NCBI GenBank assembly: GCA_033344895.1
Contig: JAWPMN010000001.1
Span: forward strand, 3,418,001 to 3,482,000
DNA length: 64,000 nucleotides
Source of the DNA: Alphaproteobacteria bacterium
GTDB lineage: Bacteria; Pseudomonadota; Alphaproteobacteria; UBA8366; Aestuariispiraceae
Direction of reading: 5' to 3'
Notes under the pieces: model-generated
The model's input: the letters and a program-made list of their open reading frames with translations, nothing else
Told to the model about the DNA's origin: nothing
Database searches by the model: none
Shown here: positions 51,724-59,146 of the stretch, in pieces
How positions within the stretch are numbered: the stretch's first letter is position 1
Layout of the letters: every line of letters begins with the position of its first letter
Position numbers and translations under genes: made by a program

Positions 51724-52968
51724 CTACAGCCAGTCCGTTTCGAAGGGGTAGGATGACATCCGTTCGACGCCGGTCTCGGTTATGATGACCTGTTCTTCCA
51801 GCTTCACGCCCTCACGGCCGCCTTCGACGCCGATGAAGCTTTCCACGCAAATCACCATGCCGGGCTCGAACAGGCCGTCATAGCCTTTCGCCGCGAAGTC
51901 GGCGCGATGCTTGATCGATGGGTATTCGTCGGCCAGCCCGACACCGTGCATGCAACTGGCATAGCGGTTGGACAGATATTCCTCCGGGATCTCCCAGGCA
52001 TCCATCGTGACGTCGTGGAAGCTTCGGCCCGGGGCCAGAATGGCGATGTTGTGCTCAATCTGCTCATGAGCCTTGGCATAGAGGCGGCGTTGTTCATCGG
52101 TCGGCTTCGCGCCGCAGATCCAGGCGCGGGAGATGTCCGAGCAATAGCCGTAGGGGCCGACAAGGTCGGTGTCGAAACTGACCATATCCCCGCGCTCGAT
52201 GGGTCGCATGGAACATTCGCGGAACCAGGGGTTGGTTCGGGGACCGGACGAGAGGAGGCGGGTTTCGATCCATTCGCCGCCCATCCGAATGTTCACTTCG
52301 TGCAGTTTGGCCCACAACGCGTTTTCGGTGATGCCGGGCTCCAGAATATCGCGCATCTCCCGGATACCCTGCTCGCAGGCCTCCATTGACTTTCGCATCA
52401 GGGCCAGTTCCTCCGGCGATTTCACGCAACGCGCCAGTTCCGCCAGGCCTTCCCCTTCGTGCAGGCTCAACTGCTGCTCTCGCAGGGCCTCGGTCGGCAT
52501 CATCGACAGGTGATCGATCGCGATCCGGCGGTTCCCGCCGCCATGTTTCTGCACCAGGTCTGCGATCTGATCCGCGAAGAGACGGGCCCGGTCAGGGCCG
52601 CGATGGGCCACCGTGAAAAAATAGAACGAAGGGATCGTACGGTATTCGTCGACGCCGGGCAGATCCTCGGCCAGGTGCGGATGGTTGGCGTAATCGAACA
52701 GGACGACGGGCCCGTCGGTACAGACGAAGACGCAGCGCGTCTCGTAATGTGCGCACCAGACCTGCATGTTGGTGGCGTCGGTGGCATAGCGGGTATTCAA
52801 CTGATTGAAGAACAGGCCGCCGGCGAAATCGCCCTCGCGCAGTTTCGCTCTCAGCCGTTCCAGCCGATAGCCGCGAACCACATTCAGGTCGACAGGCGCG
52901 TCCGAGTATTCCATGGCGCCATGCTGACGGGCCTTTTGTCGAAGCCCCCCGACTGCGTTCAACCCCAT
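51724..52968 (-). CDS. dddP: M24-fold DMSP lyase candidate (DddP-like)
   Basis: 414 residues, the 'pita-bread' peptidase M24 fold. Metal ligands are D266 and D268 (FDTDLVGPYGYCSD), D278, H341, E376 and E391. The spacing equals D295/D297/D307/H371/E406/E421 of DddP from Ruegeria, as I recall that numbering. Y336 and D347 (YASCMHGVGLADEYP) also fall at the positions of Y366 and the catalytic D377. DddP cleaves dimethylsulfoniopropionate to dimethyl sulfide and acrylate. GGGAGG is 8 bp before the ATG. Metal ligands alone would fit any M24 enzyme, so the name rests on Tyr, Asp and overall sequence. Confidence 0.72.
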   Translation of the reverse strand: MGLNAVGGLRQKARQHGAMEYSDAPVDLNVVRGYRLERLRAKLREGDFAGGLFFNQLNTRYATDATNMQVWCAHYETRCVFVCTDGPVVLFDYANHPHLAEDLPGVDEYRTIPSFYFFTVAHRGPDRARLFADQIADLVQKHGGGNRRIAIDHLSMMPTEALREQQLSLHEGEGLAELARCVKSPEELALMRKSMEACEQGIREMRDILEPGITENALWAKLHEVNIRMGGEWIETRLLSSGPRTNPWFRECSMRPIERGDMVSFDTDLVGPYGYCSDISRAWICGAKPTDEQRRLYAKAHEQIEHNIAILAPGRSFHDVTMDAWEIPEEYLSNRYASCMHGVGLADEYPSIKHRADFAAKGYDGLFEPGMVICVESFIGVEGGREGVKLEEQVIITETGVERMSSYPFETDWL

Positions 52969-53087
52969 CGCACTGCCTCCCGAAATACTCCGCCCGGACG
53001 AATGACCGTTCCAGATTTCGGCATTTGGCGGGGCAGGGGTCCCCCGGAAGCGACACTAATGGTTCGGAAACGACATTCCTGCCGCGA

Positions 53088-58116: not shown

Positions 58117-58324
58117 CAGGAAACTCCCCAGACAAAATGACATTGGCGCGCAGCTTATGCCGACGCCGCAGCGCGGAACATGTACGGCAGCGACAGGAAT
58201 GCCAACATATTGACTGGATTCAAGGAGCTTCGTATCGTTGCCCCACTGGGGCATGCGATCGCCCCGTGAGGCGTCAGCCCAAGAGTCGCGTCCTGTGAAC
58301 CCTGAATGGAAGGGAGGACGTGTT

Positions 58325-59146
58325 ATGGCGTCTCCGACTGAAATTACAGCAGCCCAATTGTCCAAACTCATCGGCCTGCCGAATTGTCCGGCGCTGATTG
58401 ATATCCGAATAGACGAAGATTTCGCGGCGCGCCCGCGCCTCATGCCCGGAGCGAGACGGCGCCGTCACACGGATGTCCAATCGTGGCTGTCCGACTATGC
58501 GGGGCGGAAATGTGTCGTCATCTGTCACAAGGGTAAGAAACTCAGCCAGGGCGTCGCGGCCCTGATGCGCACGGAAGGCATCGAGGCGGAGACTCTGGAG
58601 GGCGGAGCCGTCGCCTGGATCGAGGCCGGCCTGCCGACGATCAACCCGGCATGTCTTCCGGATCGCGATGCCAGGGGAAGAACGCTGTGGGTCACCCGGG
58701 CGCGGCCCAAGGTCGATCGGGTCGCTTGTCCCTGGCTGATCCGCCGGTTCGTCGATCCGGACGCGGCCTTCCTGTTCGTATCCCCGGCGGAGGTCATGGA
58801 TGTCGCGGACCGGTTTTCGGCCGAGCCGTTCGACCTGGAAGGCGTATTCTGGAGCCATCGCGGCGAGGAATGCACCTTCGATACGATGCTGCGAGAGTTT
58901 GAACTGGTGCATCCGGCGCTGCAGCATCTTGCCGTCATCGTCCGCGGTGCGGATACCGCCCGTCCGGACCTCGCCCCGGAGTGTGCAGGTCTGCTGGCGG
59001 CGTCGCTTGGACTGTCCCGAATGTACAGGGACGACCTGCAGCAGCTGGACGCCGCATTGGGGGTCTATGACGCGTTCTACCGCTGGTGCCGCGACGCCAC
59101 GGACGAAGGTCATGACTGGCCCATGCGGACGGGAGGCGGCAAATGA
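58325..59146 (+). CDS. chrB: rhodanese-ChrB fusion protein, chromate-resistance related
   Basis: 273 residues from ATG 58325 with GGAGG upstream. An N-terminal rhodanese-like domain (about 1-110) keeps the active Cys in VICHKGKKLSQG. The C-terminal half (about 125-265) has VACPWLIRRFVDPDAAFLFV and FDLEGVFWSHRGEECTFDTM, the ChrB C-terminal (chromate-resistance) domain. It overlaps chrA by 4 bp, as chrB-chrA pairs do. I infer a role in chromate response or chromate reduction/export; sequence alone does not show which. Confidence 0.82.
   Translation: MASPTEITAAQLSKLIGLPNCPALIDIRIDEDFAARPRLMPGARRRRHTDVQSWLSDYAGRKCVVICHKGKKLSQGVAALMRTEGIEAETLEGGAVAWIEAGLPTINPACLPDRDARGRTLWVTRARPKVDRVACPWLIRRFVDPDAAFLFVSPAEVMDVADRFSAEPFDLEGVFWSHRGEECTFDTMLREFELVHPALQHLAVIVRGADTARPDLAPECAGLLAASLGLSRMYRDDLQQLDAALGVYDAFYRWCRDATDEGHDWPMRTGGGK

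Follow-up and report, generated by a model that had tools for sequence, protein, structure and literature searches.

Prolidase, creatinase and the ectoine hydrolase DoeA, all of the M24B type, possess a dinuclear metal site like that of the DMSP lyase DddP. Solved DddP structures include those of RlDddP (4RZY, 4S00 and 4S01) and RdDddP (4B28). In the mechanism given for RdDddP, two metal ions attract the carboxylate of the substrate and Asp377 takes the C-alpha proton (PMC4108388), while a review of DddP describes a tryptophan and a tyrosine as binding the sulfur (PMC5395565). Activity has been reported for a fungal DddP that shares only 32% identity with RdDddP (PMC4108388).

The stretch of DNA analysed here (the window, 64,000 nucleotides) belongs to an alphaproteobacterium, as judged from the class sample; Hwanghaeella and Marivibrio are members of its family (identical loci). 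The window contains a gene at 51724..52968 that encodes a 414-aa M24 protein of the DddP superfamily, recognised from its ORF, profile searches and trees and carrying the Pfam domains Creatinase_N and Peptidase_M24. An earlier note had put forward this ORF as a candidate DMSP lyase with a complete DddP-type active site. The ORF is real and its residues are as that note gave them, but its strand had been missed: the gene is read from the minus strand and starts at the ATG at 52968, seven bases behind a GGAGG that is a likely ribosome-binding site (52976..52980, minus strand). The plus strand at 51724-52968 is interrupted by stops. All six genomes of the host genus possess the gene, at 79-100% identity, and in four congeners a dN of 0.045-0.133 at a dS of 1.0-2.2 indicates strong purifying selection. 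None of the neighbours scanned in the window indicates a substrate, and all matches to dmdA and acuI fall outside it. A chrB-a RNA (Rfam RF03078) is present at the start of a ChrB gene (window 58243-58327, plus strand).

In a phmmer search of solved structures, the top four matches to the protein were all DddP (E 1e-98 to 2e-97) and the next was a prolidase (2e-17). Identity to solved DddP is ~41%, aligned over most of the length of the protein. An AlphaFold model was built from a 10-row alignment (pLDDT 84), and Foldseek placed DddP at ranks 1-4 of its matches with TM 0.88-0.89, then a prolidase at about 0.70. The pita-bread fold is common to the protein and the M24B enzymes prolidase, creatinase and DoeA, but hydrolase fold matches reached at most TM 0.74, and the matches at ranks 5-50 had TM 0.64-0.74 with 15-25% identity. 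An ordinary prolidase was rejected on sequence and fold, and it is with DddP rather than with the M24B hydrolases that the protein has its closest relatives on both counts.

Despite this likeness, the protein differs from DddP in its placement. It scored 421.4 bits (E 3.9e-126) against NCBIfam NF043017, the DddP equivalog, below the cut-off of 600. It falls in a separate clade, here called W, comprising 58 rows in a FastTree tree of 176 rows (support 100) and 17 rows in an IQ-TREE tree of 67 rows (support 99). RlDddP and RdDddP sit in the DddP clade, apart from W in both trees; the IQ-TREE tree omits the long-branched DddP-clade rows L020 and L026, and neither tree includes a fungal or Oceanimonas DddP. 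The earlier note had proposed aligning the protein to characterised DddP and assigning its clade by tree, and here the two separated: constraining the window protein and its congener to the DddP clade cost 161 log units and was rejected by the AU test (p 3.4e-59), while constraining the whole of W with the DddP clade cost 47 log units (p 0.03). The nearest clade to W differs by tree, being either a plasmid-borne Rhizobium/Pseudomonas/Caballeronia group (86, weak) or a small group, W2 (91). Judged from sequence and the structural model, the window protein is a DddP paralogue in the separate clade W, with a predicted DddP-type fold and site.

The eight active-site residues singled out in the earlier note each pair with their RlDddP counterpart in the phmmer and MAFFT alignments (all codons on the minus strand). 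The six metal ligands are Asp266 (Asp295; 52171..52173), Asp268 (Asp297; 52165..52167), Asp278 (Asp307; 52135..52137), His341 (His371; 51946..51948), Glu376 (Glu406; 51841..51843) and Glu391 (Glu421; 51796..51798). Tyr336 (Tyr366; 51961..51963) and Asp347 (Asp377; 51928..51930) are equivalent to the proposed catalytic or binding tyrosine and the proposed general base, respectively (PMC4108388), and the numbering in the earlier note for the ligands, Tyr366 and Asp377 matches that source. The number Trp178 does not fit, as residue 178 of RlDddP is an isoleucine; Trp95, Trp262 and Trp277 of RlDddP are all retained, as Trp71 (52756..52758), Trp233 and Trp248. The full set of eight was present in none of six other aligned M24 proteins of the genome, drawn from seven without likeness to DddP (alignment is poor for three of the six), and its retention is therefore above chance.

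This residue set does not distinguish the window protein from its relatives. We collected 176 different superfamily rows from the class sample, the host family, contigs of named genomes and plasmids. The set is whole in 160 of the 171 rows that could be scored at every one of the eight sites, a count that leaves aside two partial W rows and three far rows (set in 0/2 scorable far rows). By group, it was found in 56/56 W rows, 4/4 of W2, 31/31 of the DddP clade, 6/6 of the sister group of that clade and 53/64 of the remaining rows, as well as in all ten proteins of a Rhizobium/Pseudomonas/Caballeronia group, which are plasmid-encoded M24 proteins labelled 'Xaa-Pro peptidase family' and, unlike the window gene, have as neighbours Rieske/hybrid-cluster oxidoreductase genes or, in Pseudomonas sp. 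MPC6, a possible ddd gene set. The set therefore marks the DddP superfamily and is not diagnostic of DddP. Assignment as a full DddP on residues alone was rejected, the set being superfamily-wide and the clade a different one. Of the proposal of a candidate DMSP lyase, the DddP-type fold and active site and the distinction from an ordinary prolidase stand; the idea that the residues single this protein out does not, and it lies outside the DddP clade and below the cut-off.

In the window protein, Asn99, Cys376, Tyr384 and Ala407 of RlDddP are replaced by Tyr, Ala, His and Ser. The first three replacements, at Tyr75 (52744..52746), Ala346 (51931..51933) and His354 (51907..51909; alignment, minus strand), characterise the core of W, with Tyr/Ala/His in 43 of the 46 W-core rows with letters there against Asn/Cys/Tyr in 35 of 36 DddP-clade rows. 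Early W rows mostly retain the DddP motif (10/15). The three positions are close to the catalytic pair in sequence, and those changed in the W core may line the substrate pocket.

The host genome (G000) also encodes a DddP of its own, at G000:C1:361241-362548 (L017, also L140), which scored 631.8 bits (630.8 in a second scan) against the cut-off of 600. It belongs to the same superfamily as the window protein and has the same residue set, but unlike that protein it sits in the DddP clade and retains Asn/Cys/Tyr; the two are 47% identical. A LysR gene and a gene for an 829-aa FAD/GcvT dehydrogenase-like protein lie near it. Elsewhere in the genome, a dmdA gene (3188462-3189556; 584.5 bits, cut-off 410) is directly followed by acuI (441.7 bits, AcuI cut-off 440), the pair (G000:C1:3188462-3190586, L201) lying about 280 kb from the W gene. 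dmdA and acuI form the DMSP demethylation and acrylate-detoxification pair. With its own DddP, dmdA and acuI each above a curated cut-off, the host probably uses DMSP, via genes other than the W gene. The suggestion that the host releases DMS from DMSP is probably right, but is better carried by L017 than by the window gene; DMSP is more likely handled by L017 and dmdA-acuI. There are five MttB-family genes in the genome, and in a third host gene of the superfamily (G000:C1:1583856-1585022, L139) a valine replaces the catalytic Asp377.

Flanks were searched at 58 distinct W loci by blastp with single queries (E 1e-20, 60% query cover). The loci range in length from 3.2 to 19.9 kb, with 4 of them shorter than 6 kb; L213, the same place as L094, had been dropped from 59 W rows. 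dmdA, acuI and dddBCDT were not found in these flanks, where contig ends can cut genes so that blastp may miss some. A dmdA candidate at L102 was rejected, being a TMAO-demethylase-like protein (1042 of 1100 bits) with only 158 of 410 bits to dmdA. An mttB or dimethylglycine-dehydrogenase-like gene is present at 15/58 loci, to which a profile search adds partial or weak dimethylglycine-dehydrogenase-like matches at L082, L102 and L105. PF06253 (MttB) proteins of marine bacteria have been given a role in glycine-betaine demethylation (PMC12478193). MttB genes occurred near W genes at 10 of 38 loci, where 1.37 would be expected; L061-L074 share one arrangement, and with this syntenic block counted once mttB numbered 3 against 0.93 expected (p 0.07). 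Neighbours of the mttB or dimethylglycine-dehydrogenase-like kind were as frequent at DddP-clade loci (3/10, against 15/58 for W; p 0.72). The block-corrected p and this equal frequency weaken the neighbours as proof of a betaine substrate. A further neighbour cluster (cluster 2, 15 loci) was dropped, as it was read as the antisense shadow of the W gene itself. At nine loci among L061-L074, the W gene is followed by an M19 dipeptidase, then a ~581-aa protein, for which the one representative scanned had no Pfam or NCBIfam match, and then often a DUF3726 protein.

Six W loci carry genes for a CoA ligase, an enoyl-CoA hydratase and a GMC dehydrogenase, one representative of each having been scanned. 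This set could suit an acrylate-type product, and DddA, itself a GMC enzyme, carries the annotation choline dehydrogenase (PMC7940609, PMC4744692). In the set, the GMC enzyme scored 792 bits against the choline-dehydrogenase profile (cut-off 732) and the nearest relative of the hydratase is crotonobetainyl-CoA hydratase (324 of 500 bits), so an acrylate route is not the obvious interpretation; use of choline or carnitine is as good a one. Among DddP-clade loci, 2/10 are adjoined by a gene of the acrylyl-CoA reductase family (408 and 418 bits, above the family cut-off of 297 and below that of AcuI; p 0.02). In the sister group of the DddP clade, loci L199 and L200, which were fetched because the proximity of dmdA had already been noticed, have a dmdA (620 and 618 bits) that adjoins the DddP-like gene or lies no more than 3 kb from it. 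Both come from gammaproteobacterial MAGs (L199:9167-11870 and L200:7572-13648), and L200 also contains acuI. Their sister-group genes, though below the curated cut-off, are good candidates for DMSP lyases that the NCBI model misses.

Most of the nearest named relatives in W are MAGs, many of which bear names of marine samples; Acidiferrobacteraceae, Arenicellales, SAR324, a sponge symbiont and Marivibrio, which is in culture, are among them. Marivibrio halodurans has a W gene (L086) 65% identical to that of the window, and a DddP-clade gene as well. Of the 115 stretches confirmed, 80 were retained, and 38 host genomes were chosen from these loci. dmdA is above its cut-off in 27 of these 38, compared with 33 of 385 genomes in the Alphaproteobacteria class sample. 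DddP is above its cut-off in 4/38, and 9/38 have a match of at least 541 bits. No gene with such a DddP-clade score was found in 21 of the 27 hosts with dmdA, and 4 of the 21 carry a sister-group gene (L199, L200, L202 and L218). Within the class sample, dmdA occurs in 26 of the 78 genomes with a DddP-like gene against 7 of the 307 without one, and in 15/57 when DddP-clade carriers are left out; lineage and habitat confound these contrasts between carriers and non-carriers, as they do that between W hosts and the class sample.

In the window protein the features of the RdDddP-type site are all kept, from the metal ligands and the Tyr/Asp pair to the conserved tryptophans, which makes beta-elimination its likely chemistry. 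We tentatively propose, with somewhat less than even confidence, that it is a dinuclear-metal beta-elimination lyase whose main natural substrate is a DMSP-related methylated zwitterion and not DMSP itself. Two metals, presumed to be iron by analogy, would bind a beta-onium propionate by its carboxylate, and its positively charged head group would be held by aromatic residues. Asp347 would take the C-alpha proton, the bond from C-beta to S or N would break by beta-elimination, and an acrylate-type acid would be left as product. We think it improbable that W represents a new lyase family performing DddP chemistry on a nitrogen betaine, such that a trimethylammonio-propionate, for example beta-alanine betaine, would yield trimethylamine and acrylate and DddP would be the sulfur-specialised relative. 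Among the papers listed in searches on DddP-like proteins or a betaine link, none describes the W clade. An M24 hydrolase of the peptidase, creatinase or ectoine-hydrolase type that retains the DddP residues by coincidence is likewise an unlikely identity for the protein, which is far closer to DddP in both sequence and fold, even though Pfam assigns it to Peptidase_M24, plasmid records label relatives as Xaa-Pro peptidases and a creatinase-like role would fit the sarcosine-oxidase genes in the vicinity of the relative L180. Valine-proline activity of RlDddP was moreover not measurable, according to PMC5395565.

That the gene gives the host a second functional DMSP lyase, converting DMSP as its main substrate into DMS and acrylate, is possible but less likely than not. 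Every catalytic residue is retained, the fold equals that of DddP, and the more distant fungal enzyme is reported as active; many W hosts have dmdA and no gene of DddP-clade score, the wider superfamily co-occurs with dmdA in the class sample, and the GMC dehydrogenase at the six W loci is of the DddA family. Against these points, the protein lies outside the DddP clade and below the equivalog cut-off, the motif beside the catalytic Asp is changed, the W flanks yielded none of the DMSP genes searched for, and a closer DddP is already present in the host genome. A related methylated zwitterion is slightly more likely than DMSP to be the main substrate of the proposed lyase.

In Tara Oceans data, dddP is reported to account for ~65% of the ddd genes (PMC10686828), and surveys have used E-value limits of 1e-30 (PMC8520302) and 1e-70 (PMC5395565) for it, some with a check of key residues. 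The window protein falls within limits of that size (3.9e-126 to the NCBI model and 1e-98 to RlDddP, rather than to the surveys' own profiles) and has the key residues. The W clade matters because loose E-values and residue checks alone would count it as dddP. Trees were also used in PMC8520302, and two environmental DddP sequences were assayed there, so its counts cannot be taken to include W. If W proteins make no DMS, such filters alone inflate the counts for SAR324 and for several groups of Gammaproteobacteria; if they do make it, a broad range of DMS producers has gone unsuspected. Were the nitrogen-betaine proposal true, some marine genes counted as dddP would release an amine and not DMS.

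Two individual loci carry further features. On a plasmid of Pseudomonas sp. MPC6 typed as conjugative (L184, 12360-26313), a CoA transferase-BCCT-ADH-MmsA set with the look of dddD-T-B-C is found ~5 kb from the DddP-like gene. L093 (CP051228.1), which is titled Mesoflavibacter, a Bacteroidota genus, has a W gene 93% identical to that of the window and equal to that of G391; since G391 belongs to the genus of the window, the title looks wrong.
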